A DNA stretch of 64,000 bases from Natronolimnobius sp. AArcel1 (GTDB lineage: Archaea > Halobacteriota > Halobacteria > Halobacteriales > Natrialbaceae), in the NCBI RefSeq assembly GCF_011043775.1, contig NZ_JAAKXY010000005.1, positions 1 through 64,000 on the forward strand, in the 5' to 3' direction. Shown here piece after piece: positions 25,923-58,901 of the stretch. A model generated the notes under the pieces. It was not told the DNA's origin, made no database searches, and saw nothing but the letters and a program-made list of their open reading frames with translations. Position numbers and translations under genes: made by a program. How positions within the stretch are numbered: position 1 is the first letter of the stretch; each line of letters begins with the position of its first letter.

Positions 25923-27638
25923 TCAATCAACGGGATCGTAGTCTGCTGGATAGTGAAGCCGGCCAGTATCGGCGTGCCACTCGAAGCCGGCATCAAGCAG
26001 GACCTGCTGGCCAGCCTCGATGTCAAATTCGAACGTCGGAACGTCCTCGGTGTACCAGAACTCGAGGTCCGGTGCGACCGGCGCGTGAGTGACCTCTGCG
26101 AAACCATCGGCACCGACGTCAACGATATCATCGCGTGGGATTGTATGGGCGCACGCTTGGCGGAGATCGATGTTTGCGAACGGTTCGCGACGTTGATTCC
26201 ACGTAATGTAGTGGAGTGAGGTCATGTTCGCGTTCTGAAGTGCGATTCCATCTTCGTCCTCAAGGTCCACGAGTTGATCCGCAGGTAGATCGAAGTTAAC
26301 CAAGTCGACTTCGCCAGTCGTGACAAGGCTGGCCGACGAGGATGCGTCGGCGGACTCGAGTCGGATCAATTCCTCGACGTTTGGTTCGTGGTGGTGCCCA
26401 TCGTGACGGCTCAGACGAACCTCTTCACCGGGTTCGAACGCTTCGAACTGGAAGGGACCGCTGCCGATAAGGTCCTCATCGATGTCAATCTCGCTAGGAT
26501 CTTCACCCTCCCAAACGTGCTGTGGAATGAGGTGGGCTTCGGCTCCAGCGAGCACTTCTGACTCCCATGTTGCGTCGGGTTGAGAGAGTTCAAACGTAAC
26601 ATCGAGGTCCGTTTCGGCCTCAGCACTTTCGAAGTTCGTCGCAACCGCTTGGAAGTCAGGACTGTTCTCGTCAGAGTACTCGAACGTAAACGCGACGTCT
26701 TCAGCCGTCACCGGTTCTCCATCATGCCATTCCATTCCCTCACGAAGCGTAATCTCATAGGTGGTATCGTCGGCCCATCCGAACTCTTCGGCCGCCCAAC
26801 TCGAGGGCATGTAGTCGTTGTCCGGATCCGGGTGCATCAACCGATCGTAAATGAGTCGGATCATGTCACGAGACGAGCGAGCCTCGAGGCCAGTGACGGG
26901 GTTGAGTGTTGGCAGCTCTTCGTGGCTGGCGATGGTGAGCATATCATCGCCTTCGGCTCCGCCATCGAGTTCGAGATTGACCATGTTCCAGATACTGGCC
27001 AGGCCGTCCTCGAGGACTTCTTGAACGTTACTGACTCGATCTTCGTTGTACGGCATTGCCCGGTCTTGGACGGCAATCGGTGAGATAACCTGCTCTTCCA
27101 TCAGATACTCGTACATCTCGTGGACGATTTCTTGCCGATCGTCTTCGTCGACAGCTTCGCGCTGTTCCGCCATCCACTCTTCGTACTCTTCGCTATCGTG
27201 TCCGGACGTGTTATCTCCACCTTCACCGAGTGCGGCTTGAGAAAACGCACGAAGGAGGGCGTCGGGATCGTATCCGTCGAGGTAACGCATCGGGGCACAG
27301 TCGAAATCCCGCGTGTCGAACACCCGCTCGAGGTGTGCGTCGAGAGCGCGAGAGTTGTAATCGACTTCGAGTCCGAGCTCTTCCATGTAACCAGCATGTT
27401 CTTCGCCGTACCAGTACCGAAGCGGTGAATCGGGATCAAGGTTTTCGTACGCGACCGTGGGAACCTCTTCACCATCCGGATCTTCAGCGACACCCTCTTC
27501 GGGCGCTGTGTCTTCGTCGTCTCCACCGACACACCCGGTAACCGTCACGACGCCTGCAACCCCTGCTGCTTGTATAAATCGTCGTCGGGTCTGGCCATTC
27601 TGTACGCTTAACTGCACCTGTCTGGCATTGTCTACCAT
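25923..27638 (-). CDS. Solute-binding lipoprotein of the peptide/oligosaccharide family (SBP family 5), apparently circularly permuted
   Basis: 571 residues with a Tat lipoprotein signal (TRRRFIQAAGVAGVVTVTGC, lipobox Cys36). The order of the mature parts is unusual. Residues about 60-225 look like the distal C-terminal lobe of family 5 (GYMEELGLEVDYNSRALDAH, then DFDCAPMRYLDGYDPDALL, and a closing EIVHEMYEYLMEEQVISPIA helix). Residues 233-571 look like the family's normal N-terminus and middle (LTIASHEELPTLNPVTG, TYEITLREGMEWHDGEPVTA, IGSGPFQFEAFEPGEEV), ending at the point where the first part would continue. Together they make up one complete protein. It is transcribed away from the permease genes at 28045 and should feed that importer. 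The ligand is unknown; the neighbours suggest a sugar or sugar acid oligomer. Confidence 0.85.
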   Translation of the reverse strand: MVDNARQVQLSVQNGQTRRRFIQAAGVAGVVTVTGCVGGDDEDTAPEEGVAEDPDGEEVPTVAYENLDPDSPLRYWYGEEHAGYMEELGLEVDYNSRALDAHLERVFDTRDFDCAPMRYLDGYDPDALLRAFSQAALGEGGDNTSGHDSEEYEEWMAEQREAVDEDDRQEIVHEMYEYLMEEQVISPIAVQDRAMPYNEDRVSNVQEVLEDGLASIWNMVNLELDGGAEGDDMLTIASHEELPTLNPVTGLEARSSRDMIRLIYDRLMHPDPDNDYMPSSWAAEEFGWADDTTYEITLREGMEWHDGEPVTAEDVAFTFEYSDENSPDFQAVATNFESAEAETDLDVTFELSQPDATWESEVLAGAEAHLIPQHVWEGEDPSEIDIDEDLIGSGPFQFEAFEPGEEVRLSRHDGHHHEPNVEELIRLESADASSSASLVTTGEVDLVNFDLPADQLVDLEDEDGIALQNANMTSLHYITWNQRREPFANIDLRQACAHTIPRDDIVDVGADGFAEVTHAPVAPDLEFWYTEDVPTFEFDIEAGQQVLLDAGFEWHADTGRLHYPADYDPVD

Positions 27639-28044: not shown

Positions 28045-29022
28045 ATGAATATGCAACGTTATGTGGCCAGACGAATCGGGCAACTGATGGTCACTTACTT
28101 CGCGTTCCTGACGCTGCTCTTCGTCATCTTTCGACTTGCACCGGGGGATCCGACGACAATGTTCCTCCTTGAAGGAATGACTCCCGAAGAGCGCGAGGCA
28201 ATTCTTCAACGGTGGGGGCTTGATCAGCCCTTGTACGTACAGTACTACGAGTACCTCGGACAATTGTTGACGCTTGATCTAGGTCAATCGATCCGATATG
28301 AACAGCCGGTGACCGACATTCTTTGGACCCGGTTCTGGAACACGGTGTTGCTCATGGGGCCCGCTTTCTTCCTATCCTACATCATCGGCGTAGGTATCGG
28401 CGCGTTCATGGGCTGGGTTCGCGGGACCGTCAAAGAGAAAGGTGGCATCGTGCTCACGCTCATCGCCCGCTCCTCGCCGGAGTTCTGGACGGGTATTGTC
28501 CTGCTGACCGTGTTCTCGTTCTGGCTCGGATGGTTCCCCTCGGGCGGCATGCGAGCTCCTGGATACGAGGCCGCGACGTTCTGGGACCGATACCTTTCGC
28601 TGGATTTCGTTCACCACATGATACTGCCGCTCATGACCGGCGTCGTCTTCTACATGGCGACGCCTGCGCTGTTGATGCGCAGTAGCATGATCCAGGTGTT
28701 GAATTCCGATTTCATCGAGATCAAGAAAGCAGAGGGACATCCAGAATGGATTATCCTCTACAAGTACGCGGCGCGAAACTCCATCCTTCCCATCACGACT
28801 GTCGTGGCAATCGTTGTTGGTGTGGCACTTGGCGGCTCGCTCGTCATCGAGACGATCTTCAGTTGGCCGGGAATGGGCCGGGAGATGGTTGACTCGGTAC
28901 AGTACAACGATTATCCAGTTGCACAGGCGGTGTTCTTCCTGATGGGTAGTGTAGTTATCTTCATGAACTTTGTCGCCGACATCGTGTACGTTTACCTGGA
29001 TCCACGGGTGAAATACGAATGA
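28045..29022 (+). CDS. ABC importer permease, DppB/OppB type
   Basis: 325 residues; a start at 28051 is equally possible (Met-Asn-Met). There are six membrane helices, with a first helix directly at the N-terminus (RRIGQLMVTYFAFLTLLFVI) followed by the RLAPGDPTTMF segment typical of DppB. The binding-protein-dependent transport loop is KKAEGHPEWIILYKYAARNS, with the conserved E-A-x3-G pattern modified to E-G. It also has the SWPGMGREMVDSVQYNDYP ending of the family. It forms the membrane channel with the next gene, which it overlaps by four bases (ATGA). The transporter would import peptides or oligosaccharides. Confidence 0.92.
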   Translation: MNMQRYVARRIGQLMVTYFAFLTLLFVIFRLAPGDPTTMFLLEGMTPEEREAILQRWGLDQPLYVQYYEYLGQLLTLDLGQSIRYEQPVTDILWTRFWNTVLLMGPAFFLSYIIGVGIGAFMGWVRGTVKEKGGIVLTLIARSSPEFWTGIVLLTVFSFWLGWFPSGGMRAPGYEAATFWDRYLSLDFVHHMILPLMTGVVFYMATPALLMRSSMIQVLNSDFIEIKKAEGHPEWIILYKYAARNSILPITTVVAIVVGVALGGSLVIETIFSWPGMGREMVDSVQYNDYPVAQAVFFLMGSVVIFMNFVADIVYVYLDPRVKYE

Positions 29023-29951
29023 GCAGCGAGACACAACCGAAGTCAGAAACAGGAACGGCGAATCGGTTCGTCAGTAAGCGACGGATGAAGAAGCTATCAC
29101 AGGATCTCTCGACGCTTTGGAGAGTGATTCGAAGAGATCGCCTCGCGGTTATCGGTGTCGGAATACTCGTCGTGTATCTGGCTGTTGCCGCCTTCGGTGA
29201 ACTCCTTGCGCCACACGAACCAGGTGAGACACAGCGGGCAGGCGGCGAAGTGCTTCGAACCGAGGGACCGACGGCCGGTTACTGGTTCGGAACGACGAAC
29301 TACGGCGAAGATATCCTTTCGCAGGTCATTATATCGACGCGCGTTTCGGTCATGGTCGGACTGGCCGCCGCGGCGATGGCGGTCTTCATCGGTGCGAACG
29401 TGGCCCTGATCAGTGCCTATTACGGGGGCTGGGTTGACGACATCCTCATGCGAGTCGTCGACATCGCATACGGGCTGCCGTTCCTCCCGTTCGTGATCGT
29501 ACTGGTATTCATCCTCGGCGCGAACATCTGGAACATCATCATCGTTATTGCAGCCATCCTATGGCGCGATTCCGCACGGGTCGTTCGGTCTGAAGTACTC
29601 TCGCAGAAACAGCGACCCTACGTGAAATCTGCCCGTGCCATTGGGGCGAGCGATATTCGAATCATGTATCGGCACATTCTCCCCAACGTGTTGCCGCTTA
29701 TCGGCCTCTATGCCGCGTTTGCGGTCGCCTACGCAATCATCTACGAAGCCAGCATTGCGTTCCTTGGATTCGGCGACCCAACGCTTTACTCGTGGGGACA
29801 AATGCTGTTCCAGGCCTACCAGTCCGGCGCGATCCGCTACGCCTGGTGGTGGGTCCTGCCACCGGGTGTTGCCCTCATGCTGATCGTAATGGCCGTCTTC
29901 TTCATTGGACGGGCGCTCGAACAAATCACTAATCCGGAGTTGAGACACTAA
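29019..29951 (+). CDS. ABC importer permease, DppC/OppC type
   Basis: 310 residues, with an N-terminal cytoplasmic tail of about 35 residues before the first helix (VIGVGILVVYLAVAAFGELL). The DppC landmark GYWFGTTNYGEDILSQVI follows, where most members read GTD-x-G-RD. The coupling loop is SARAIGASDIRIMYRHILPN and the C-terminal ends with ALEQITNPELRH. The start overlaps the stop of the DppB-like gene, and the stop overlaps the ATG of the first ATPase gene by one base, so the four transporter genes form one tight operon. Confidence 0.92.
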   Translation: MSSETQPKSETGTANRFVSKRRMKKLSQDLSTLWRVIRRDRLAVIGVGILVVYLAVAAFGELLAPHEPGETQRAGGEVLRTEGPTAGYWFGTTNYGEDILSQVIISTRVSVMVGLAAAAMAVFIGANVALISAYYGGWVDDILMRVVDIAYGLPFLPFVIVLVFILGANIWNIIIVIAAILWRDSARVVRSEVLSQKQRPYVKSARAIGASDIRIMYRHILPNVLPLIGLYAAFAVAYAIIYEASIAFLGFGDPTLYSWGQMLFQAYQSGAIRYAWWWVLPPGVALMLIVMAVFFIGRALEQITNPELRH

Positions 29952-31024
29952 TGCTCGAAATCAACGATCTCAAGACGTACTACGAAACCGACGACGGCAA
30001 GTTCGTACATGCCGTCGACGGCGTCTCGATCAACGTTGAGGAACAGGAAACACTCGGACTCGTCGGCGAGTCCGGCTGTGGCAAGACAACGCTTGCGAAG
30101 TCGATCATCCGGTTGTTACCTCGAAACGGTGAGGTTGTCGACGGCGAAGTTTCGCTTCACGGCAAAGAAATCACCGAGATGAGCGACAAAGAACTCCGCC
30201 AGGAGATTCGGTGGACGGAAATTTCGATGATCCCGCAGACGGCAATGAACGGGTTTGACCCCGTAAAGACCGTCGGAAAGCAGATCGTCGACGTCATCCG
30301 TCGTCACGAGGATACGCCCAAAGCCGAAGCACGGGAGCGGGCCAAAGAGCTGTTTGAGAACCTTGGCCTCGAGGGGAGTCGAATTGACGATTATCCCCAC
30401 CAGTTCTCCGGTGGGATGGCTCAACGGGCGATGATTGCGATGGCACTTGCCCTGTCGCCGTCGATTATCCTGGCCGACGAGCCAACCACAGCACTCGACG
30501 TGATGATCCAAGATCGGATTCTCCGCCAGATCGACGAGCTACAAGAGGAGTTCGAGACAGCGATGATTATGATTACACACGACATGTCCGTCGTTTCGGA
30601 GAACTGTGACAAGATTGCCGTGATGTACGGTGGTCGCGTCGCCGAGTATGCCGACGCGCGGACAGTCATCAAGCAGCCACGCCATCCCTATACGATGGGG
30701 ATGCGAAACGCGTTCCCCGACATCTCACAGGACTCGCAGGATCTCATTTCGATTCCTGGTACGCCGCCGGAGGTGACCGATCCAGACGAGGGATGTCGTT
30801 TCGCACCACGGTGTCCGTTCGCAGAGGACGATTGCTGGGATGTGACGCCTGAACCGGAAGAGTACGATGGGCAGGTTGTCCGCTGTCACCGCTCAGACGA
30901 AGCCGAAGAGTTGCGGGAGCTTGCAAAGAAGAAAGAGACGTGGATGGACGAACCGGCCGAAGCCGAGTCGTCGGAGTCTGACGACCGGCGCGGTGACACG
31001 CTGACGGAGGTGAACGATGACTAA
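29951..31024 (+). CDS. ABC importer ATP-binding protein, DppD/OppD type
   Basis: 357 residues. Walker A GESGCGKTT is at 39-47, the signature is FSGGMAQRAMIAMALAL, Walker B is IILADEPTTALD, followed by the H-loop Met-Ile-Thr-His-Asp. After the nucleotide domain comes the oligopeptide-transporter C-terminal extension with a four-Cys cluster pattern (EGCRFAPRCPFAEDDCW then VVRCH), common in Dpp/Opp ATPases and often binding an Fe-S cluster. The ATG overlaps the preceding TAA. The gene end overlaps the next ATPase by eight bases. An acidic, Ser-rich tail closes the protein. Confidence 0.93.
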   Translation: MLEINDLKTYYETDDGKFVHAVDGVSINVEEQETLGLVGESGCGKTTLAKSIIRLLPRNGEVVDGEVSLHGKEITEMSDKELRQEIRWTEISMIPQTAMNGFDPVKTVGKQIVDVIRRHEDTPKAEARERAKELFENLGLEGSRIDDYPHQFSGGMAQRAMIAMALALSPSIILADEPTTALDVMIQDRILRQIDELQEEFETAMIMITHDMSVVSENCDKIAVMYGGRVAEYADARTVIKQPRHPYTMGMRNAFPDISQDSQDLISIPGTPPEVTDPDEGCRFAPRCPFAEDDCWDVTPEPEEYDGQVVRCHRSDEAEELRELAKKKETWMDEPAEAESSESDDRRGDTLTEVNDD

Positions 31025-32108
31025 CTCGGCACCGAATGGCGACCCGAAAGTACGGACACAGGGACTGAAAAAGCAGTTCAGCGCGGACACCAATCTGCTC
31101 TCGAGGCTGCTCGGAACCGGCGAAGAAGAGACGGTCAAAGCAGTCGACGGCGTTGACCTTGAGATCTACGAGGGTGAGTCGCTTGGTATCGCCGGTGAGT
31201 CCGGCTGTGGGAAGAGTACGCTGGGTGAAACGCTTCTCCAGTTGTACGAACCCACGGATGGCCAGATATTCTTCGATGGACAGGATATTACAGGTATGGA
31301 GTCGATCGACGACGCCGAGTTCCGGACCGAGGCGCAGATTATTCAGCAGGATCCCTACCAGTCGATCAATCCGCGCTTTACGGTCTACAACTGGGTCAAA
31401 GAGCCACTCGACGTTCACGGAATTGGTTCCGAGAAAGAGCGTGAACGACGCGTCCTCGAGGCAATCGAGATGGCCGGTTTGCAGCCAGCGGAGGCGTTTG
31501 CCAACGAGTACCCGACGGAACTTTCGGGCGGTGAGCGCCAGCGCGTCGGGATCGCGCGAGCGATTGTCTTGCGGCCGTCGTTTATGGTGGCTGACGAGCC
31601 GACGAGTATGCTCGACGTAAGCGTTCGTGCGAGTATTCTGGACACGCTCAACCGGCTCCAAGCGGAGTTGGATCTGGCGATCATGTACATTAGCCACGAT
31701 CTCTCACTGCTGAAACACACTTGCGATCGAATTGCGATCATGTATCTCGGGAGAGTCGTTGAGCAGGGGCCGGCGACGGAGGTCATTAACGATCCGAAAC
31801 ACCCCTACACGAAGGCACTCGTCTCCTCGACGCCGATCGTTGATCCAGACGAAGATCGCGAGCCGATCGAGATCGAAGGCGAGGTACCCGATCCGGTCGA
31901 TCTCGCGCCTGGCTGTCGGTTCGCGCCGCGCTGTCCCGAGGCCCGTGAAGAGTGTCGGGCGGACGAACCCCACATGTACGATGTCGGTGAGGGCGAGCAC
32001 ATCGCCCGCTGTGTCCTCTACGACGACGATATCGACGCGGAAGTAACGATGGGAATGGGAACAAACGACGCGAACGCGGATACGGAAGCTGAAATCGGCT
32101 CGGACTGA
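31017..32108 (+). CDS. ABC importer ATP-binding protein, DppF/OppF type
   Basis: 363 residues. Walker A GESGCGKST lies at 60-68, the Q-loop in IIQQDPYQSINPRF, the signature in LSGGERQRVGIARAI, and Walker B in MVADEPTSMLDVSVRAS. The C-terminal extension has the four-Cys pattern GCRFAPRCPEAREECR and a final IARCV. It forms the second half of the ATPase dimer with the gene upstream and closes the operon. An acidic tail rich in Asn, Asp and Glu is haloarchaeal. A T-rich stretch follows the stop. Confidence 0.93.
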   Translation: MTNSAPNGDPKVRTQGLKKQFSADTNLLSRLLGTGEEETVKAVDGVDLEIYEGESLGIAGESGCGKSTLGETLLQLYEPTDGQIFFDGQDITGMESIDDAEFRTEAQIIQQDPYQSINPRFTVYNWVKEPLDVHGIGSEKERERRVLEAIEMAGLQPAEAFANEYPTELSGGERQRVGIARAIVLRPSFMVADEPTSMLDVSVRASILDTLNRLQAELDLAIMYISHDLSLLKHTCDRIAIMYLGRVVEQGPATEVINDPKHPYTKALVSSTPIVDPDEDREPIEIEGEVPDPVDLAPGCRFAPRCPEAREECRADEPHMYDVGEGEHIARCVLYDDDIDAEVTMGMGTNDANADTEAEIGSD

Positions 32109-41414: not shown

Positions 41415-43229
41415 ATGGTAGATGAAAGCATAGCAACCAGTAGCATGATCAAGTCAATGAAACGTAGAAGGATTCTACAAACAGCTGGAGTAGTGGGTCT
41501 TACAGGCCTCGCAGGCTGTTTCAGTGACGAGGGGGGTGATGACGACTCTACGGGGGGTGACGAACTCCCTGATACGGAAGAGGTTGAGTTCGTTGATACA
41601 GAATTCGTGACACCGACCGTGGTGCAGCCAGATAACATCCAGTTCAATCCGTACAACGATAATAATTACTCGTGGCGGGTGGGTCTGGTACTTTTCGACG
41701 ATCTAGTGTACCAAGAGAAATACAACAACACATTCGAACCTGGTGTTGTGACTGATTGGGCCGTTACGGAAGAGGATGTCTCTCTCGACATTCGTGAGGG
41801 ACTCTCCTGGCACAATGGAACTGATATTACGGCTGAGGACGTGGTTCGCAAACTCAGACTAGAGTTGCATGACGGAAGTAATCTCGGAAACTACATTGAT
41901 ATTGACACGATCGTAGCCTCTGACGATCACACGGTGGAGATGGAGTTCGATCAACCGTTGGGCGAGACGATGCTGCTCAACTTTTTAATGGAAATTACGC
42001 TGGATACGCCTGAAACGTACTATCAGGAGTTTTTGGAAGACTTCGAAGATGGTGGTGACGGAGAAAACGCTGATGGTGAAACGCTTGCAGAGTACACCAT
42101 CGAAGACCCAATTGGAAGCGGACCGTTTGCTTTTGATCAAACCGTCGAGCAAGAACTCCACCTCGAGTTGTATGAAGCGCACCCTGATGCCGATAACATC
42201 AATTTTTCAGGGTACCACTTTCGGTTTCTCGATACCAACGAAGGACGTTGGCAGGAAATCGGAGAGGGTCAAATTGACGGACTCCACAGCGTGTTTACGC
42301 CACCAAACATCGTGGATGGGTTCCCAGACCACGTCCAAGAGTTTAGGCTCGACGCCAACTACGGAATGGGAATCTTGTGGAACCACGATCACAAACATTT
42401 CGGGCAGCGTGAGGTCCGTCAAGCGATTGCGCACGTAATCGATCGTGAGACGACAGCGGCGAATGCTGGTCCTGACACCGAAGAACCGGTGAACACGCCA
42501 ACCGGGATTTTGGGTAATCATGACGACACTGCAGACGAGTGGCTCGGTGATTATGCTGAGGACTTCGAACAGTACGATCAAGACACTGATCGTGCGGCCG
42601 AACTCCTCGAAAGCGCCGGATTCCAGCGTGATGATGGAACCTGGTATGATGAAGACGACGATCCCCTTGAGTTCCCTGTGAAAGCCCCCGCAGGGTACAG
42701 CGATTGGGTTGACGCGATTCAAACGTTTAATGACCATCTGAACGATTTCGGGATTCAAGCAGAGTTCGTCTCTCGGGACGAGGCTGCTTTCTGGGGCCAA
42801 GATATCTACGGTGATGAAGGCTTTGACGTCGCCCTTCACGAGTGGGCAAACGTGCAACGCCATCCGTATTTCAGCCTCGAGTGGCTCCTTGACAGCGGGG
42901 ATAACGAAACCGTTCGAAATTACGATGACAGCGAGATTGAGCTGCCTCCGGTTGGTGAGGACAGCGGATCGGAGACGTTTGTTCCGGCTGAGGATCTCCA
43001 GAACCTTGCCATGGCAGATGAGACTGAAGAAGAGCGCGAGTACGCGCAACGACTTGCTTGGGTAGTCAATCAAGACCTCGTGATGCACCCCATCATGGAA
43101 AAACAGGATCAATCATTTATTTCGACGGATCGGTTCATGACGACCTCTCTTGATGACCCGGATGCCCACGTCGACTTCCCGACTACGTATTTGCTCCGGC
43201 AGGGTAAACTGGTTGCCAGAGAAGAATGA
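41415..43229 (+). CDS. Solute-binding lipoprotein of the peptide/oligosaccharide family (SBP family 5)
   Basis: 604 residues. ATG 41415 is favoured because the TATA box atatata lies about 28 bases upstream; internal Mets at 41445 and 41457 are possible. The Tat lipoprotein signal is KRRRILQTAGVVGLTGLAGC, then an acidic linker. The domain order is the normal one: SLDIREGLSWHNGTDITAED early, DPIGSGPFAFDQTVEQE in the middle, AAELLESAGFQRDDGTWYDE, and the distal lobe YSDWVDAIQTFNDHLNDFG at the end. It is the first gene of the ABC operon, 25 bases before the first permease. Family members bind peptides, cello- or laminari-oligosaccharides and other sugars. The neighbouring GH3 and GH81 enzymes suggest beta-glucan oligosaccharides. 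Confidence 0.92.
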   Translation: MVDESIATSSMIKSMKRRRILQTAGVVGLTGLAGCFSDEGGDDDSTGGDELPDTEEVEFVDTEFVTPTVVQPDNIQFNPYNDNNYSWRVGLVLFDDLVYQEKYNNTFEPGVVTDWAVTEEDVSLDIREGLSWHNGTDITAEDVVRKLRLELHDGSNLGNYIDIDTIVASDDHTVEMEFDQPLGETMLLNFLMEITLDTPETYYQEFLEDFEDGGDGENADGETLAEYTIEDPIGSGPFAFDQTVEQELHLELYEAHPDADNINFSGYHFRFLDTNEGRWQEIGEGQIDGLHSVFTPPNIVDGFPDHVQEFRLDANYGMGILWNHDHKHFGQREVRQAIAHVIDRETTAANAGPDTEEPVNTPTGILGNHDDTADEWLGDYAEDFEQYDQDTDRAAELLESAGFQRDDGTWYDEDDDPLEFPVKAPAGYSDWVDAIQTFNDHLNDFGIQAEFVSRDEAAFWGQDIYGDEGFDVALHEWANVQRHPYFSLEWLLDSGDNETVRNYDDSEIELPPVGEDSGSETFVPAEDLQNLAMADETEEEREYAQRLAWVVNQDLVMHPIMEKQDQSFISTDRFMTTSLDDPDAHVDFPTTYLLRQGKLVAREE

Positions 43230-43254
43230 ACGTCAAGAGCACTGAGAGAAACAT

Positions 43255-44277
43255 ATGAAACGATACCTCGTAGAACGCACCGTACAACTGGTATGTACCA
43301 TCTTCGCGGTGATGACCCTGACGTTCTTCTTGATCCGGTTACTTCCTGGTGGACCAGCAGATGCCCTACGAGCAAATCTCCTCCAGAATAATCCGGAGAT
43401 GAGTGCCGATCAGATCAATCGACGCGTCGAAGCACAACTGAATATCATGCCCGATGAGCCGCTCTACATCCAGTACGTCTCGTACGTCTCTGACCTGTTG
43501 CGTGGGGATATGGGGGAATCCATGTCACAGGGGAGTCCTGTTACGGAAGTGATTGCTAATGCGGCCCCGTGGACGATTTTTTTCATCGGAACGGGTGTCA
43601 CAGTCGCATTCGTGCTCGGGATTTCATCTGGGGCAATTATGGCTTACCGCGAAGGCAGTAGGTTCGATAGCGGATCAACTGTCACGGCAATCTTGATGAA
43701 TTCTATCCCAGACTACATCTACGGGCTCATCTTCCTTTGGTTGCTGTCGTATCAACTCGAGGTCTTCCCAACTGGAGGACGTTATTCCAGTACGACAGAG
43801 GCCACGGTTACCCCCCTTGCACCGATCGAAACGCTCACATTCTTTGGGGACGCACTCTGGCATGCTGCGTTGCCAATCACCTCTATCGTTTTGGTCGCTT
43901 GGGGCGGCTGGGCCCTCGGGATGCGTGGAAACAGCATCCAGATTCTCGGTGAAGACTACCTTCGTGTTGCCCGTCTCCGTGGGCTACCACAGCGTCGGAT
44001 CGCGTTACGGTACGTCGGTCGCAATGCGGTGCTTCCGATGTACACGTCAATGTTGATTACGATTGGCTTCCTGCTCGGTGGATCGATTATCATCGAACAG
44101 GTGTTTAGTTATCCCGGGATGGGGTACTATATGATCGAGGCGCTGCAGCAACGCGATTATCCGCTGATGATGGGCGTATTCCTTGTCATCACGATCACTG
44201 TTGCAATCGCTGTATACATCGCTGACCTTACCTACGGGCTGATTGACCCACGTGCAAGTGTTGGTGATATACAATGA
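43255..44277 (+). CDS. ABC importer permease, DppB/OppB type
   Basis: 340 residues with six helices. The first helix begins at residue 9 (TVQLVCTIFAVMTLTFFLI), followed by RLLPGGPADALRANL. The coupling loop is VARLRGLPQRRIALRYVGRN, and the end has SYPGMGYYMIEALQQRDYP, all as in DppB/OppB. It is preceded by the binding-protein gene by 25 bases and overlaps the next permease by four bases (ATGA). It forms the channel of the second importer of the window, clearly distinct in sequence from the first (28045). Confidence 0.92.
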   Translation: MKRYLVERTVQLVCTIFAVMTLTFFLIRLLPGGPADALRANLLQNNPEMSADQINRRVEAQLNIMPDEPLYIQYVSYVSDLLRGDMGESMSQGSPVTEVIANAAPWTIFFIGTGVTVAFVLGISSGAIMAYREGSRFDSGSTVTAILMNSIPDYIYGLIFLWLLSYQLEVFPTGGRYSSTTEATVTPLAPIETLTFFGDALWHAALPITSIVLVAWGGWALGMRGNSIQILGEDYLRVARLRGLPQRRIALRYVGRNAVLPMYTSMLITIGFLLGGSIIIEQVFSYPGMGYYMIEALQQRDYPLMMGVFLVITITVAIAVYIADLTYGLIDPRASVGDIQ

Positions 44278-45290
44278 GTAATCAGATGGACTCTGCTGAT
44301 CTGCTAGAGAGTGACGAGGCCATCGAGACGGTCGCAGACAAAACGCTCAGCAAGCGCGAGCGGTGGACACTCACGATCGAGCGAAGTGTTCTTGCTCCTG
44401 CTCGAATTGCTTGGGCAGACCTACGAGCACGCATTGGATTCGTAATAATATCTCTGTTCGTCATGATGGGTGTGCTCGGTACCCGTCTTGTCGGAGAACC
44501 GCAAACGAACCAGGGCGAGCGTCTCGAACCCCCGTTCCAAAGCCTTGCACACCCACTGGGAACTGACAGCGTTGGGCGCGACATTTTTGGACAGATCGTT
44601 CACGCGACCCCGAACATGCTGTTGATGATCTTAGCTGGCGGTGTGTTTACCACTGTGATGGCGACCGCTGTTGGGACGACCTCGGGCTACCTCGGTGGGA
44701 GAACAGATCGAGCGATTATGTCGGTCACCGATATCGTGCTGACGATTCCGGGGCTACCGCTTGTCGTCATCTTGGCTGCAGCACTGACACCCACAAACCC
44801 GATCGTGATTGGTGTGATACTGACGATCAATGCGTGGGCCGGTCTGGCTCGAGCCATACGGTCTCAGGTGCTGACGATCCGTGAGAGTTCATATGTCGAA
44901 GCATCAAAGGCAATGGGGATGTCGACGTCTTCGGTCGTCCGACGCGATATCCTGCCGAATATTATGCCGTATGTGCTGATCAACTTCGTCACCGCCGCAC
45001 GAAACGTCATATTCGCGTCCGTTGGACTGTACTTTATTGGTGTTCTCCCGTATGACGATGTCGTTAATTGGGGAGTTATGATTGACCTGGCCTACCAGGG
45101 TGGCGGACTTCAATCGATGACAGCAGCACATTGGCTGTTCGCTCCGCTGTTTACGATTACTCTGCTTTCGTTCGGGCTGATCATGTTCGCACAGGGCACC
45201 GATCGAATGTTTAATCCACGCGTCCGCGCTCGGCAGTCGACGACCACTGAGAAGAACGGTTCGCGGTCCGATCCTACAGGTGATCACTGA
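44274..45290 (+). CDS. ABC importer permease, DppC/OppC type
   Basis: 338 residues. A longer N-terminal cytoplasmic part (about 50 residues) precedes the first helix. The family landmark HPLGTDSVGRDIFGQIVH is complete here, with GTD and GRD. The coupling loop reads VEASKAMGMSTSSVVRRDIL and LPN follows. The C-terminal tail after the last helix is polar (TTTEKNGSRSDPTG). Its stop overlaps the ATG of the ATPase gene by one base. Confidence 0.92.
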   Translation: MSNQMDSADLLESDEAIETVADKTLSKRERWTLTIERSVLAPARIAWADLRARIGFVIISLFVMMGVLGTRLVGEPQTNQGERLEPPFQSLAHPLGTDSVGRDIFGQIVHATPNMLLMILAGGVFTTVMATAVGTTSGYLGGRTDRAIMSVTDIVLTIPGLPLVVILAAALTPTNPIVIGVILTINAWAGLARAIRSQVLTIRESSYVEASKAMGMSTSSVVRRDILPNIMPYVLINFVTAARNVIFASVGLYFIGVLPYDDVVNWGVMIDLAYQGGGLQSMTAAHWLFAPLFTITLLSFGLIMFAQGTDRMFNPRVRARQSTTTEKNGSRSDPTGDH

Positions 45291-46336
45291 TGAGTAAACA
45301 AGAAAAAATCAACTCTACGACTAGCCGCACAGAGCCGATTTTGGAGATCCAGAATCTGACCGTTCAATTCGAAATGGACCGCGGGACGTCACGGGTGATC
45401 GACGATGTCCACCTTGATATCAATCGAGGCGAAATTATTGGTATCGTTGGTGAATCGGGGTCTGGAAAGTCGATGCTCGCGTCATCGTTACTCGATGCTG
45501 TCGTTACTCCCGGTGTCACTCTCGGCGAGATTATCTATCGGTCGACAGACGGCAAGTCAGTCGACGTTCTTGATCTTGGCGAGGAAGAACTTCGGAAGTT
45601 CCGTTGGGAAGAGACCTCGATGGTGTTTCAGGGGGCACTTTCTTCGTTCAACCCGACGATGAAGATCCGCGAGCACTTCGAGGAGACACTCGAGGCGCAC
45701 GGCTATTTGGTTGGCGAGGGAATGGAGCGTGCAGCTAACCTCCTCAACGATCTGTATCTTGATCCAAACAGAGTGTTAGACTCGTACCCACACGAACTCT
45801 CCGGCGGGATGAAACAACGAACGCTGATCGCGCTCGCACTCGTACTGGAGCCAGACGTACTCGTCATGGACGAGCCGACCGCAGCACTGGATCTCCTCAT
45901 GCAGCGCTCAATCGTCAGTCTGCTTGCTGAGATCCGGGATAAGTATGAGCTGACGATGGTGTTTATCACGCACGATCTTCCACTTGTGACGAAACTTGCA
46001 GATCGGATTGGTGTTCTGTACGCCTTCGAGCTTGTGGAGCTAGCGGACACGGAAGCGATCCTCCGAGAACCGACACATCCATACACTCGAGCACTGTTGA
46101 ACGCGACACCGAACCTCGATGCGCCACTGGAAGAGATGCGCCCAATTGAGGGGGCCGCCCCTGATCCAGTAAATGTGCCCGCAGGCTGCTCCTATCATGA
46201 CCGATGTCCACTAGCGACCGATGAGTGTGAACATGAGCAGCCATCGTTCGAACACGTAAGCGAAACTCACGATGTCGCCTGTCACCACTGGCAGGACGCC
46301 GATGAAGTTCCGCTGACAACGGAGGTAGAGCAATGA
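45290..46336 (+). CDS. ABC importer ATP-binding protein, DppD/OppD type
   Basis: 348 residues. Walker A GESGSGKSM (about 59-67) has Met where most members have Thr. The signature is LSGGMKQRTLIALALVL and Walker B is VLVMDEPTAALDLL, followed by FITHDLP. The C-terminal extension has a CSYHDRCPLATDECEHEQ four-Cys pattern and a later ACHHW. It forms a heterodimer with the next ATPase. The ATG overlaps the preceding TGA by one base and the stop overlaps the next ATG (ATGA). Confidence 0.92.
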   Translation: MSKQEKINSTTSRTEPILEIQNLTVQFEMDRGTSRVIDDVHLDINRGEIIGIVGESGSGKSMLASSLLDAVVTPGVTLGEIIYRSTDGKSVDVLDLGEEELRKFRWEETSMVFQGALSSFNPTMKIREHFEETLEAHGYLVGEGMERAANLLNDLYLDPNRVLDSYPHELSGGMKQRTLIALALVLEPDVLVMDEPTAALDLLMQRSIVSLLAEIRDKYELTMVFITHDLPLVTKLADRIGVLYAFELVELADTEAILREPTHPYTRALLNATPNLDAPLEEMRPIEGAAPDPVNVPAGCSYHDRCPLATDECEHEQPSFEHVSETHDVACHHWQDADEVPLTTEVEQ

Positions 46337-47406
46337 GCACGGACGAGACGGTTATCTCGCTGTCCGGCGTAGACGTTCACTTCGAGTCGGAAAGTGGAAT
46401 GAATCCGTTCAAAGAGTCTCAGACGGTCCGTGCCGTCGACGACATCAATATCGAAATTGCTGAAAACGATGTCATCGCTATCGTCGGTGAATCTGGTAGT
46501 GGGAAGACAACGCTTGGAAAGACCGCGGTAGGTCTCCAGAAGCCCACCAACGGGACGGTCAGCTATCGGGGACAGGACATCTGGAAAGCCCGCAAACGCT
46601 TTTCGAATCCGGACATCCCATTTCCCGAGATCCGCCGGTCGCTCCAGATAATCCATCAGGATCCGGAATCATCGCTCAACCCACACAAATCGGTACGGTC
46701 GTCACTCGAACAGCCACTCAAAAAGTGGCAACAAGACCTCGGGCCGGAAGACAGAGAGGCTCGGATTCTGGCCATGCTGGAAAAAGTCGGGATGTCGCCA
46801 CCACACGACTACGCACAGCGATACCCACATCAGCTGTCCGGTGGGGAGACACAACGTGTCGCTCTCATCCGTGCCCTATTGATGAATCCTGATCTCATTC
46901 TCGCAGACGAGGCAGTGTCGGCACTAGATGTGTCCTTGCGGGTGGAGATGATGGATCTCATGTTAGATCTCCAAGACTCGTTCGATACATCGTATCTATT
47001 CATCAGTCATGACCTTTCCAACGCTCGGTACGTCGCCGAGCATGCGGATGGGTATCTCGGCGTGATGTATCTTGGCGAACTCGTTGAGTTCGGTCCTGCG
47101 AAAGAGGTACTGCAGAATCCGCAACACCCCTACACCAAGGTCTTGCGGTGGGCAACGCCGTCGCTTGAGATCGCCGACGAAACAGAACCACCGGTCCGAA
47201 AGATCGACATTCCAGACCCCGTGAATCCACCTTCTGGCTGTCGGTTCCACACGCGGTGTCCGTATGCGACTACGTACTGTCAGGAAACCGCTCCAGACAC
47301 TCAGTCACTCGGTGATTTGGATCATCGTGCGGTCTGCTATCGAATCGACGAAGATAGCAAGTATTGGAACGCGGAACCGTTGGAGGGTGCACATATTGAC
47401 CGATGA
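46333..47406 (+). CDS. ABC importer ATP-binding protein, DppF/OppF type
   Basis: 357 residues. Walker A GESGSGKTT (about 55-63), the Q-loop in IIHQDPESSLNPHKSV, the signature LSGGETQRVALIRAL and Walker B LILADEAVSALDVSLR follow in order; note Ala-Val in place of the usual Pro-Thr after the Walker B Glu. An H-loop FISHDLSNARYV and a four-Cys C-terminal extension (GCRFHTRCPYATTYCQE) complete it. It is the last transporter gene. The GH3 gene starts 94 bases later on the same strand and may be read through. Confidence 0.92.
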   Translation: MSTDETVISLSGVDVHFESESGMNPFKESQTVRAVDDINIEIAENDVIAIVGESGSGKTTLGKTAVGLQKPTNGTVSYRGQDIWKARKRFSNPDIPFPEIRRSLQIIHQDPESSLNPHKSVRSSLEQPLKKWQQDLGPEDREARILAMLEKVGMSPPHDYAQRYPHQLSGGETQRVALIRALLMNPDLILADEAVSALDVSLRVEMMDLMLDLQDSFDTSYLFISHDLSNARYVAEHADGYLGVMYLGELVEFGPAKEVLQNPQHPYTKVLRWATPSLEIADETEPPVRKIDIPDPVNPPSGCRFHTRCPYATTYCQETAPDTQSLGDLDHRAVCYRIDEDSKYWNAEPLEGAHIDR

Positions 47407-54475: not shown

Positions 54476-57400
54476 TTAAGTCCTATTCTCTTGGAACCGC
54501 CCGAAAGCAGCGAGGAAGACGACAATCGCCAGTAGCGTGATACCAACGCTGAATCCCGATGTTCCATCGTCGACGTCTTCGGTCACACTATTCTCACCAC
54601 TGTCCCCGGCGCTCGAGACACCATCATCATCCACGTCAGATGTCTCATTACCCCCCATTTCGTCAGAAGTCGAGCTGGGGGTCTCCGCATTAGGCACGCC
54701 AACACCAACTGCAAACTGCGAGAACCCATCGACGGCGGCACTGAAGCGTATTTCGTCGCTCGTTTCATCGATAACTGTCGTCTCGAGTGATCGCCACTCG
54801 TTCGCGTCGGGGTCGAAGTGGTACAATGAGACCGCATCGAGGTCACCGTCGGCAGTCTCGAGCGCTTCGATCGGAGCGGTGAACTCGATCGTCGCCGAAT
54901 CGAACTGGCCAGGTTCGAAGTCGGTGCCAATTTGGAGGTGGCCAACTGCCTCGAGACCCTGGTCTAGGTCGCGAACGTCGTCGGTGGTCGGCGTGTTGCT
55001 CTCACGGATCGTTAGCGCCGTGTCGATCGACTCGGAGAATGTGATCTCGAGTTGTTCGGTCGTCGCTATTGGGCTGTCCTCGGCTGCAGTGTCGTCGGTG
55101 AAAAACCGGAGTTCGATCGTTTGGGTATTGCTGAATTCAAGGTGTGATTCAGAGACGCCGTCGCTAACGGAGGGAGTGACGTCGGCCCGAAGTTCATCAC
55201 CCACAGTCCGAACCGATGTCGTCCCGTCGCCGTCTACTGCCGTGCTGGAACTGCTCGTCCCGCCTCCAGTCGCGGCGTCGGGTACGGCTTCGACGGTCAC
55301 CACCTCGCTGTCAGTGTCGTCGCCGCTCGTCACGGTCACGCTTCCCGTACCGGCGTCGCTGACCGCGGTGTCCCATTGCAGGGTACGCTCCTCGGAGTCA
55401 CCGCTCTCGAGTGTGACCGCTTGGGTGTCCCGCTCGTCGCCGTCGAAATCACGCAGTTCGACAGTCCGGTCGCCGTCTGCGGCCCAGTTAGTGACGTTTG
55501 CGGTCACCTCGAGGGGTTCGCCCTCGTCAACTGGTGCGTTGGTATCGGTGACGTTCACCCCGTAGAACGGTTCGGTGTCTTGCCAGGCGAGCGCTGGGTA
55601 GGCGCCGGTGGCGTGCCAGGAGCCCTGGGTGCTCTCAGCGGGGAACTCGAAGCCGGACATGAGCGCGGTAGCGTTTGCGCCGGTCATCTGGTCGGTGGTG
55701 AGGCCTTCCCCACCCCCGGCTGAGTCGTCTTGGCCAGTCGTTTCAGTGTCCCAGTAGGAGCCTTCGACATCGCTTTCGGTGTCGTGGAAGCCAACCAGCC
55801 CGCCAGCCGTCGTTCCGTTGACAGTGCCAGTGGCGTACGACTCGCTGACTGTGCCCTCGGTGTTGTAGCCGACCAGCCCGCCGACATAGGTGTCTCCTTT
55901 GACAGTTCCTGTGGCGTACGACTCGCTGACTGTGCCATCGTTGTAGCTGATCAGCCCACCGACAGTATTCCCACTTCCTTTGACATCACCGGTTACGTAC
56001 GACTCGCTGATCGTGCCATTGTTGTAGCCGACCAGCCCGCCGACATTGTTTTGTCCATGAATTTTGATATCATCGAGTCCAACCTTCTCGATGGTTGCAT
56101 CGTCTGTGTACCCAAACAGGCCTATAACGTCCTCTTCGCGATCGATTGTAAGATTCGAAATCGTGTACTCGCTGCCGTTGAACCAGCCCGTGAACTCCTC
56201 GCCGTCCTCACCAATTGATTCGAATCCGTGACCATTGTTAACCGCTGCATCGGCCACGTCTTCGTAGCCAGCCGTCTCTGTGTCAAGGTCGTTTGCCAGC
56301 GTGAAGTTCGCGTCCAGGTTCTCGCGAACGTTGTCGAGATGGTACCAGTCTTCGATCACGTAGGGGTCGTCCTCGCCGTTGCCGTCCGCGTATAGCGTGG
56401 CGTTCGGTGCTGGGTCCTGTGGATTGTTTTGGAGGGTAGGATAGTACTCGAGGGCCCCGTTGGCAGAATCACCCTCGGATACGTCCCACGACTCCTCAAA
56501 GTCAAATTTCATGCTGTCTTCGGCACTGTCGCCAGTCATCTCTCCAGTGGTGAGTCCCTCACCGTTGCCGCCAGATGCTGATTGACCCGTAGTCTGTGTG
56601 TCCCAGTAGGAGTCGGAGACGTCACCGTCGTCGTATCCGACGAGTCCACCGAGCGTCGTAACGCCGTCGACAGTGTCGACGGCCCCAATCGCGTACGAGC
56701 CCGCACCCGTTGCGTAGGAGTGAGACACCGTCCCCTCGTTCACACCGACCAGCCCGCCCAGGTTGTAACCCCCATCGACGTCGACGCTGGCGACGGACTC
56801 CGTTACCGTCCCGCCGTTACTGCCGACAACGCCACCCTGTGTATGGTGGGAACCCTGTAGATCTCCAGAAACCGTGGTTCTCGTTACGTCTCCGGAGACG
56901 AGGTTTCCGACTGCTCCCCCGAAAATTGAGGTCCCATCGAGGCTGAGGTCCACAGTGGCGTTAGTTATTGAGGTCTCTTGGCCATACCCTACAACTCCTC
57001 CCGTCCCCGCTCTGCCAGCGACCGATCCCTGAACGAAAACGTCGGTCACGTCCGTATCGATCGCCGACCCGATGATTCCGCCGGTGTAACACAGGCCGTT
57101 GGAGTCACACTGGCCGCCGGAGACATCGATCGCTTCGAAGTGGACGTCCGCTATCGTCGCCCCGTCGGTACCCCCGAACAGTCCAGTCTCGTCCTCGTCG
57201 CTGTCGATGACCAGATTCGAAATCGTGTGGCCGTCACCACTGAACTCACCCTCGAACGGACTATCTTGACAGACACCGCTGTTGACATCTCCGCACTCAC
57301 CGATCGGCTCGAAGCCATCCTCGCCATCCCACTTCTCAGTCCCAGAGGCATCGATAGTAAGCGCGAGTCGGTAGTCATCAGCCAGCGAGCCACTATCGAG

Positions 57401-58573
57401 GCCAATTGCCTGCAACACCTTGTCGCTGGTGACGAGTTTGACATCCCCGTCCGTCTCCATCTCCTCGAGAAGCCGCTCTTTTTCAGCATCGTCTGGTTCC
57501 GTGAAGTGCGGTGTCGACGTCGTGCGGGCGTTGTTCTGCAGGTCTGGGTAGTCACCGACGACGGTAGTCCAGGTGTCGTCGAAGTCGAGGCCGTCGCCTG
57601 GCTCAGTCATGTTGCCATTGCTGCCGTCATAGGCCCACCTACCCTGCATCTCTTGGGTGCTAAGGCCGTTGACCTCGTCGACATCATGATCGCCATTACC
57701 GATGCCGTCGTTATCACCGCTCAACCCACTTCGTTCGGTGTCCCAGTATGATTTCTCGACTGTTCCGTTGAAGTCGTCGAGGTTGAAGCCGACCAGCCCA
57801 CCGATATCATCGTCTCCTGTGATAGTCCCAGTGGCGTAGGACTGCTCGAGTGTGCCCCGGTTGAAGCCGACCAGCCCGCCGACATTGTTTCCGTCTCCTG
57901 TGACAGTCCCGGTGGCGTACGACTCGCTGACTGTGCCTTCATCACTGTTCCAGCCGACCAGCCCGCCAACATGGACGTATCCTGTGACAGTACCAGTGGC
58001 GTACGACTCGCTCACTCCGCCAAAGTTGTCGCCGACCAGCCCGCCGACCGATAGGTCTCCTGTGACAGTCCCGGTGGCGTACGACTCGCTGACTGTGCCG
58101 TCGTTGTCGCCGACCAATCCGCCGACATCATTGTTACCGTGGATGTCGACATCTTCTAGTCCGACGTTCTCGATGCTCGCGTCTTCGTCAGTCCCACCAA
58201 ACAGGCCCACATGGTTCTCGCCACTGCGGTTGATGATGAGATGCGAAATGGTGTGCTCGTCACCGTCGAACGCTCCTGTGAATCTGTCTATATCATCTCC
58301 AATCGGGTCGAAGCCATCCCCATCGTTCCAGTTCTCGGTATCGCTCGAATCAATATCGTTCCCGAGTTCGTAGTGTGCACTCAGATTACCACTCATCGCC
58401 TGCAACTCCGAGGCGTTCGTGATGATGTAGGGATCACCGTCGACACCCTCACCGTCCAGATCAGTATCGGGATCGAGGTCGACCGAATCGGCCGCTACCG
58501 CTCCCACAATTCCGACAGCGAAAACGCTTGCTGCGATGATAAAAACCATCGCCCCTAACCAAAGGACTCTCAT
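54476..58573 (-). CDS. Large GLUG-repeat surface protein with C-terminal membrane anchor
   Basis: 1365 residues from ATG 58573 (MRVLWLGAMVFIIAASVFA), chosen because the signal helix then starts the protein. The chain holds three units, each opening with a lead such as YIITNASELQAM, an NWNDGDGFDPIG-type turn, an SHLIINR or SNLTIDR strand and LFG, then tandem GLUG motifs (GGLVG-N-GTVSESYATGTV) up to an SYWDTxTTGQ closing. After these come a CARDB-like domain (VNVTDTNAPVDEGEPLEVTA), a PGF-pre-PGF-like segment (FFTDDTAAEDSPIATTEQLE and DGFSQFAVGVG), an acidic Ser-rich spacer and one terminal helix (VGITLLAIVVFLAAF). It is probably an adhesin- or S-layer-associated protein. The repeats are also visible in the DNA. 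Confidence 0.88.
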   Translation of the reverse strand: MRVLWLGAMVFIIAASVFAVGIVGAVAADSVDLDPDTDLDGEGVDGDPYIITNASELQAMSGNLSAHYELGNDIDSSDTENWNDGDGFDPIGDDIDRFTGAFDGDEHTISHLIINRSGENHVGLFGGTDEDASIENVGLEDVDIHGNNDVGGLVGDNDGTVSESYATGTVTGDLSVGGLVGDNFGGVSESYATGTVTGYVHVGGLVGWNSDEGTVSESYATGTVTGDGNNVGGLVGFNRGTLEQSYATGTITGDDDIGGLVGFNLDDFNGTVEKSYWDTERSGLSGDNDGIGNGDHDVDEVNGLSTQEMQGRWAYDGSNGNMTEPGDGLDFDDTWTTVVGDYPDLQNNARTTSTPHFTEPDDAEKERLLEEMETDGDVKLVTSDKVLQAIGLDSGSLADDYRLALTIDASGTEKWDGEDGFEPIGECGDVNSGVCQDSPFEGEFSGDGHTISNLVIDSDEDETGLFGGTDGATIADVHFEAIDVSGGQCDSNGLCYTGGIIGSAIDTDVTDVFVQGSVAGRAGTGGVVGYGQETSITNATVDLSLDGTSIFGGAVGNLVSGDVTRTTVSGDLQGSHHTQGGVVGSNGGTVTESVASVDVDGGYNLGGLVGVNEGTVSHSYATGAGSYAIGAVDTVDGVTTLGGLVGYDDGDVSDSYWDTQTTGQSASGGNGEGLTTGEMTGDSAEDSMKFDFEESWDVSEGDSANGALEYYPTLQNNPQDPAPNATLYADGNGEDDPYVIEDWYHLDNVRENLDANFTLANDLDTETAGYEDVADAAVNNGHGFESIGEDGEEFTGWFNGSEYTISNLTIDREEDVIGLFGYTDDATIEKVGLDDIKIHGQNNVGGLVGYNNGTISESYVTGDVKGSGNTVGGLISYNDGTVSESYATGTVKGDTYVGGLVGYNTEGTVSESYATGTVNGTTAGGLVGFHDTESDVEGSYWDTETTGQDDSAGGGEGLTTDQMTGANATALMSGFEFPAESTQGSWHATGAYPALAWQDTEPFYGVNVTDTNAPVDEGEPLEVTANVTNWAADGDRTVELRDFDGDERDTQAVTLESGDSEERTLQWDTAVSDAGTGSVTVTSGDDTDSEVVTVEAVPDAATGGGTSSSSTAVDGDGTTSVRTVGDELRADVTPSVSDGVSESHLEFSNTQTIELRFFTDDTAAEDSPIATTEQLEITFSESIDTALTIRESNTPTTDDVRDLDQGLEAVGHLQIGTDFEPGQFDSATIEFTAPIEALETADGDLDAVSLYHFDPDANEWRSLETTVIDETSDEIRFSAAVDGFSQFAVGVGVPNAETPSSTSDEMGGNETSDVDDDGVSSAGDSGENSVTEDVDDGTSGFSVGITLLAIVVFLAAFGRFQENRT

Positions 58574-58901
58574 TGCCCCTCCGGGGCCAGTATTGGTTCT
58601 GAAACAGTCTGGCGTCCTCGAGCACTCTGCCAATCAATCCAGAGGAGACGGACAGTCTCACACAGGTTTTGGCAATTCTGTGACAATCGAAGCCAGGTGG
58701 ATACCGAGTGAAGAAGATCTTGCATTGCGTACGCAAACCGTACTGTTACAGTCATCATAAACTGAATACCAGCGGATAGTGGTATGCGAAAATGACGTGC
58801 TGAAACGGTTTCTGTCTACTACACGCCCATTATGTGTCTTGAATGACTAATGTTGAACCGATAAGGTCCTACTGCCCGATGAGAAAGACACGCATAAATT
58901 C
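58574..58901. other. 328-base divergent intergenic region
   Basis: No gene. It carries the promoters of the surface protein (leftward) and of the histidine kinase (rightward). Short frames across it are shadows of the surface protein's in-frame upstream extension. Confidence 0.5.

Follow-up and report, generated by a model that had tools for sequence, protein, structure and literature searches.

The window analyzed here, a stretch of 64,000 nucleotides from the haloarchaeon Natronolimnobius sp. AArcel1 (contig NZ_JAAKXY010000005.1, positions 1 to 64,000), contains the gene of a substrate-binding protein (SBP) whose segments do not follow the order of its family, SBP_bac_5. An earlier note on the same DNA had read the protein as a circular permutation of SBP family 5 and had named a rearrangement between two receptor genes as the alternative. 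The locus thus raises the question of whether a complete receptor has been naturally permuted, how widely the permuted form is distributed and whether it still serves an importer. The favored reading, held with considerable confidence, is that the window protein is a permuted, normally folded, two-lobed cluster C receptor of the adjacent Dpp/Opp-type importer (28045-32108), that it belongs to a clade of haloarchaeal and many bacterial proteins (type 1), and that a second group (type 2) was permuted independently.

Segment order of the window protein

The location of a Tat lipoprotein reading frame was confirmed (571 amino acids, lipobox VTGC36), and the gene was divided into the following segments, all on the minus strand:

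25923-27638, minus: SBP_bac_5-type receptor gene, 571 amino acids (ORF translation)
27531..27638, minus: signal region, residues 1-36, twin-arginine motif TRRRFIQ and lipobox VTGC (ORF translation)
27444..27530, minus: acidic spacer from the lipid anchor to the first folded segment, residues 37-65 (ORF translation, alignment A1)
26982..27443, minus: "tail", residues 66-219, homologous to the C-terminal portion (~150 residues) of canonical family members (profile against AppA and Dpp; tail HMM)
26946..26981, minus: new junction, residues 220-231, linking the canonical C-terminus to the canonical N-terminus (head and tail HMM boundaries)
25959..26945, minus: "head", residues 232-560, homologous to the N-terminal portion (~320 residues) of canonical family members (PF00496 4-286; AppA 24-345)
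25923..25958, minus: new C-terminus (cut site), residues 561-571 and stop codon, just after the ...LLDAGFEW..DTGRLHYP motif

The twin-arginine motif and the lipobox meet the secreted-protein criterion of cluster C SBPs, and C36 is presumed to be the lipidated N-terminus. The TAT_signal match is weak in Pfam, and the NCBIfam TAT_signal_seq model lies just above its cut-off (17.3 bits vs 16.7).

The Pfam model PF00496 (SBP_bac_5) matches the window protein with an E-value of 8.5e-53, only at residues 280-560 and only over profile positions 4-286 of 368, and the canonical protein encoded at 41415-43229 in the same window covers positions 2-366. Since the match ends at position 286, the last ~80 domain positions are missing from the C-terminus of the window protein, where the stretch beyond the Pfam domain is likewise absent. 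The protein was re-ordered in silico (residues 228-571 followed by 56-227), with a shuffled N-terminal part as the control. Re-ordering extended the Pfam match from position 286 to 360 and raised the score from 181.5 to 187.3 bits (+5.8), and the shuffled control stopped at 290 without any gain (180.9 bits). Against canonical receptors from related genomes, the re-ordered query aligned over almost its whole length (e.g., 19-495 unbroken), and its match to permuted receptors was now split into two places.

The missing segments were located with a profile of 27 homologues (alignment A1) that was searched against the sequences of the PDB. Profile positions 231-546 match residues 24-345 of AppA (1xoc, 225 bits) and positions 56-210 match residues 359-507 (59 bits, i-E 2.5e-15), in swapped order. 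The Dpp chain 8z1y gives the same picture, with positions 229-545 matching residues 29-368 and positions 64-201 matching residues 383-516 (i-E 6.7e-17), again swapped. Residues 232-560 and 66-219 of the window protein thus correspond to residues 24-345 and 359-507 of solved family members; every segment occurs once, with none missing and none doubled, and the alignment to the structures leaves no residue gap at the cut, which bears out the earlier observation that no part is absent or repeated. The yardstick that had been suggested, the canonical protein at 41415, is too diverged for the tail HMM to serve in that role.

In a scan with separate head and tail HMMs, the tail preceded the head in 150 distinct proteins and followed it in 36 canonical proteins; a further 8 proteins had no recognizable tail, and the tail HMM matched none of 1866 non-receptor ORFs. 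The canonical N-to-C order of segments is not met in the window protein, where the tail precedes the head, which makes it a permuted variant and not an ordinary family member. The sequence comparisons show it to be a complete cluster C (Dpp/Opp/Nik-type) receptor with its segments in circularly permuted order, as first proposed. None of the NCBIfam and Pfam models matched has the permuted order, and most matches stop near the cut; the N-terminal part of one permuted protein matches the NCBIfam OppA model at profile positions 398-502.

Distribution and history of the permuted form

Homologues that are colinear with the window protein share the swapped order end to end from 65% down to ~25% identity. 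The order is thus fixed and inherited and does not stem from a local rearrangement. An ancient two-gene chimera at the origin of the type 1 clade is not excluded by the short tail alignment. The same order was sought in related haloarchaea and permuted-type colinear matches were present in at least 88 of 194 genomes, a lower bound that includes some type 2 proteins and counts only full-length colinear matches above 410 bits (canonical proteins in the set reach a maximum of 335 bits). The source genome itself encodes three permuted receptors: the window protein and the proteins at C9:17492-19360 and C6:20338-21300.

Judged by record titles, which include several metagenome bins, the permuted form also occurs in at least eight bacterial phyla, with holders among the Alpha- and Gammaproteobacteria, Bacillota, Spirochaetota, Deinococcota, Actinomycetota, Chloroflexota, Atribacterota and one desulfobacterial bin. 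It is uncommon in bacteria: an alphaproteobacterial sample of 142 genomes had it in 7, and a Bacillota sample of 149 genomes in 6 (centre genome included in both). On one contig assigned to the Atribacteria (L121), two SBP_bac_5 genes adjoin, one canonical and the other permuted, each with transporter genes. A subgroup of type 1 (L020, L022, L025, L030 and several of L049-L060) carries a longer N-terminal part and an additional C-terminal extension of 34-40 residues (FPNGEAWGAFVERIQPEN...), for which no tail homology was found by HMM.

Most of 141 type 1 proteins have their C-terminus at almost one position of the model, directly behind the ...AxxLLxxAGYxWDxDGxLxYP element, and the tail starts with the strand that follows. 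In canonical proteins these two model edges are -3 to 13 residues apart, so no residues have been lost at the type 1 cut. At the other end of the rearrangement, the gap at the head-tail junction is mostly 8-13 residues and ranges from 8 to 46 across the family. In the phylogenetic analysis a single branch separates type 1 from the other proteins (SH-aLRT 83; FastTree 0.90 for head and tail, 0.987 for the head alone). Since type 1 is flanked by canonical proteins on either side, the canonical order was taken as ancestral.

Type 2 consists of eight haloarchaeal proteins (L024, L026, L196, L197, L199, L202, L203 and L214) that are cut ~20 residues earlier than type 1, with the AxxLIxxGF helix at the N-terminus, and was seen only in haloarchaea in the sample searched. 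In the tree it stands apart from type 1, beside L063, a canonical-order receptor in the genome of the window protein itself (C3:781876-782976). L063 compares with type 2 at 30-33% over the head and 28-33% over the tail, in swapped order, and is a candidate for the unpermuted state. A tree in which types 1 and 2 are held as a single group was rejected (p-AU 0.0077), which points to two separate permutations; on this phylogenetic evidence, the permutation of cluster C receptors probably arose twice, independently.

The only rival with real weight, and one that retains a small chance of being correct, is an ancient chimera in which the head and the N-terminal tail derive from two separate SBP_bac_5 genes, mimicking a permutation. 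It draws support from the bit scores of the tail and the head against canonical relatives, which correlate only moderately (Spearman 0.36), and from the tail-only tree, in which type 1 is not resolved as one clade; the 134 columns of that tree are too few. Against a chimera, each part occurs exactly once without a residue gap at the cut, and the best canonical match is the same pair (L164) for the head HMM and the tail HMM. For type 2, both the head and the tail point to the same canonical relative, a concordance that favors a true permutation of one gene. A relic of tandem duplication was also sought because the route to a permutation by duplication and trimming predicts one; no permuted protein contains a second tail segment, and the 34-residue extension of the one subgroup is not tail-like.

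Predicted fold, importer and inferred receptor function

The structure of residues 54-571 was predicted by AlphaFold2 from an alignment of 79 permuted homologues from public contigs, with a pLDDT of 95.3 and a pTM of 0.92; a control prediction of the canonical protein at 41415 from its single sequence failed at a pLDDT of 34. Structures of SBP family 5 make up the entire top 50 of a Foldseek search of the PDB with the model (E down to 2e-18). The alignments extend over only about 340-410 columns with TM values of about 0.4-0.54, as expected when a sequential aligner meets a permuted chain, and none of the top PDB matches is aligned over the full length or shares the segment order.

In DppA and OppA lobe I carries both canonical termini, and the stretch that contains the type 1 cut is, judging from these proteins, presumably part of lobe II. 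From this it follows that lobe I should be continuous and inserted, and that the lipid anchor should sit on lobe II. This lobe assignment and the geometry of the anchor are inferred from these canonical proteins, without an order-independent superposition of the model. In the arrangement envisaged, the chain would start and end at a loop of lobe II, after the AxxLLxxAGYxWDxDGxLxYP element, and the canonical N- and C-termini, together in lobe I, would be joined via the short linker. Lobe I would then form one continuous stretch between the two parts of lobe II, so that the canonical arrangement is inverted, with the lipid anchor on lobe II instead of lobe I. The ligand would be bound by closure of both lobes and then handed to the permease pair.

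A complete importer, with two BPD_transp_1 permeases and two OppD/F ATPases, is encoded beside the receptor gene at 28045-32108:

28045..29022, plus: DppB/OppB-type permease, divergent operon (BPD_transp_1; best NCBIfam match Opp2B)
29019..29951, plus: DppC/OppC-type permease (best NCBIfam match Opp4C)
29951..31024, plus: OppD-type ATP-binding protein
31017..32108, plus: OppF/DppF-type ATP-binding protein (ORF; same class downstream of other permuted receptors)

The window gene is divergent from these genes, unlike nearly all of its relatives, which precede their transporter genes on the same strand, and its pairing with the importer rests on adjacency for that reason. Of 82 further loci with a permuted receptor, 79 have Dpp-type transporter genes directly downstream on the same strand, and in 46 of them the order is exactly B-C-D-F. 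Among the three exceptions, two are cut off by a contig edge.

The neighboring genes bear on the ligand. Those of the relatives encode hydantoinase/oxoprolinase, M20, M28, M24 and M81 peptidases, TldD-type proteins, D-aminoacylase, dipeptide epimerase, creatininase and threonine/serine dehydratase, a set that suggests peptides, N-acyl or D-amino acids, or cyclic amides as ligands. Around the window receptor lie an IclR regulator, a LUD/Fe-S lactate-type oxidase, an SMP-30 lactonase and several sugar-type short-chain dehydrogenases, and none of the genes named for the relatives adjoins it. With such neighbors a sugar or sugar acid is as likely a ligand for the window protein, an inference that no binding data support as yet.

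Further features of these neighborhoods were recorded. The canonical receptor of the window lies 14 kb away with its own permeases and ATPases (41415-47406) in a similar, sugar-acid-like neighborhood, and the window also contains a 1385-amino-acid ORF on the minus strand (54476-58633). A conserved gene block that encodes the permuted receptor, the importer, a hydantoinase/oxoprolinase and an M28 peptidase recurs on alphaproteobacterial plasmids (L079, L080, L081 and L084).

An ordinary Venus-flytrap receptor function is the most likely role of the window protein. The domain order, its completeness and conservation, the clade structure, the operon linkage and the confident fold prediction are direct results of the analysis, and receptor function in the sense of ligand binding and transport is inferred from them without binding or uptake data. 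That the protein has lost its transport role and acts as a ligand sensor for gene control is improbable: it draws support from the window gene being divergent from the transporter and not leading its operon, and against it stand the retained flytrap fold of the model and the transporter genes that directly follow in nearly all related loci.

Even less can be said for a receptor made of the head alone with ~165 unrelated residues inserted at its N-terminus, a reading that retains only the slimmest chance. The N-terminal part on its own has no Pfam match and only weak single-sequence matches in the PDB, as such an insertion would, yet its profile matches the C-terminal segment of AppA and Dpp (i-E 1e-15 to 1e-17) and no non-SBP ORF, and the Pfam match is extended by re-ordering and not by shuffling. 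Aligned separately to the family, residues 60-225 match its C-terminal part, so that the failure to align there, which would have refuted the permutation, did not materialize, and residues 230-571 do not run through the whole family as an insertion would require. The insertion is ruled out by the match of the N-terminal profile to family C-termini. An assembly artefact or a recent rearrangement private to the source genome, for which no favoring evidence was found, has a negligible chance and is ruled out by the distribution of the permuted form, since the same order recurs in 150 distinct proteins, including those of complete genomes and plasmids of unrelated organisms.

Relation to known binding proteins and significance

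Like the canonical cluster C SBPs (DppA, OppA, AppA, NikA; PF00496), the permuted receptor contains all recognizable segments of the family, a predicted fold of the same two lobes, and the same Dpp/Opp-type permease and ATPase partners. It differs in that their C-terminal ~150 residues stand at its N-terminus, and in that its chain ends presumably lie in a loop of lobe II and the canonical termini are joined through a short linker. Engineered circularly permuted binding proteins serve as biosensors and demonstrate a tolerance of flytrap proteins for new termini; those proteins are man-made, whereas the family of the window protein is natural.

A natural parallel is TpMglB-2 (Tp0684) of Treponema pallidum, a circularly permuted binding protein of an ABC importer that has kept ligand binding and that, together with relatives in treponemes and Gram-positives, was named "Cluster Bc" (Brautigam et al. 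2016, PMC4990184). Both have a naturally permuted SBP topology, but the window protein is a parallel case and not a member: TpMglB-2 is a glucose-binding cluster B protein of the type I fold in which strands of the N-lobe moved to the C-terminus (PMC4990184), and the significant Pfam and PDB matches and the top fold matches of the window protein belong to family 5, cluster C, so that homology to cluster B or MglB is not met. The authors of that study raise a link between permutation and membrane tethering and also discuss a fusion or chimera as an alternative (PMC4990184). In the permuted cluster C receptors, by contrast, many bacterial members have a signal peptide without an obvious lipobox, which weakens permutation as an adaptation to tethering, although only a simple lipobox pattern was applied. 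Searches of the open-access text in PMC brought up no report of a permutation in cluster C and no natural SBP permutation other than TpMglB-2 (subscription literature and unpublished annotations were outside the scope), and the large family of permuted cluster C receptors is apparently unreported. By analogy, these receptors may be named "Cluster Cc".

One tentative explanation, more doubtful than probable, is that cluster C receptors were permuted at least twice at neighboring points of lobe II and that the permuted forms were kept over very long periods across the Archaea and Bacteria because the moved chain ends, and the lipid anchor where present, would alter the hold of the receptor over the permease or its docking on it.

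Few receptor families are as common in prokaryotes as SBP_bac_5. Its domain models assume a single order, the N-terminal third of the permuted proteins falls outside them, and members of the permuted clade are annotated merely as "ABC transporter substrate-binding protein"; an order-dependent structure search likewise covers only about two thirds of the chain. The permuted receptors represent a natural experiment on the receptor-permease interface that concerns both the lobe that bears the anchor and the role of chain connectivity in docking, and they are unusual in that natural permutation seems to have happened more than once at almost one site, and in that the genome of the window protein also encodes a candidate unpermuted relative.
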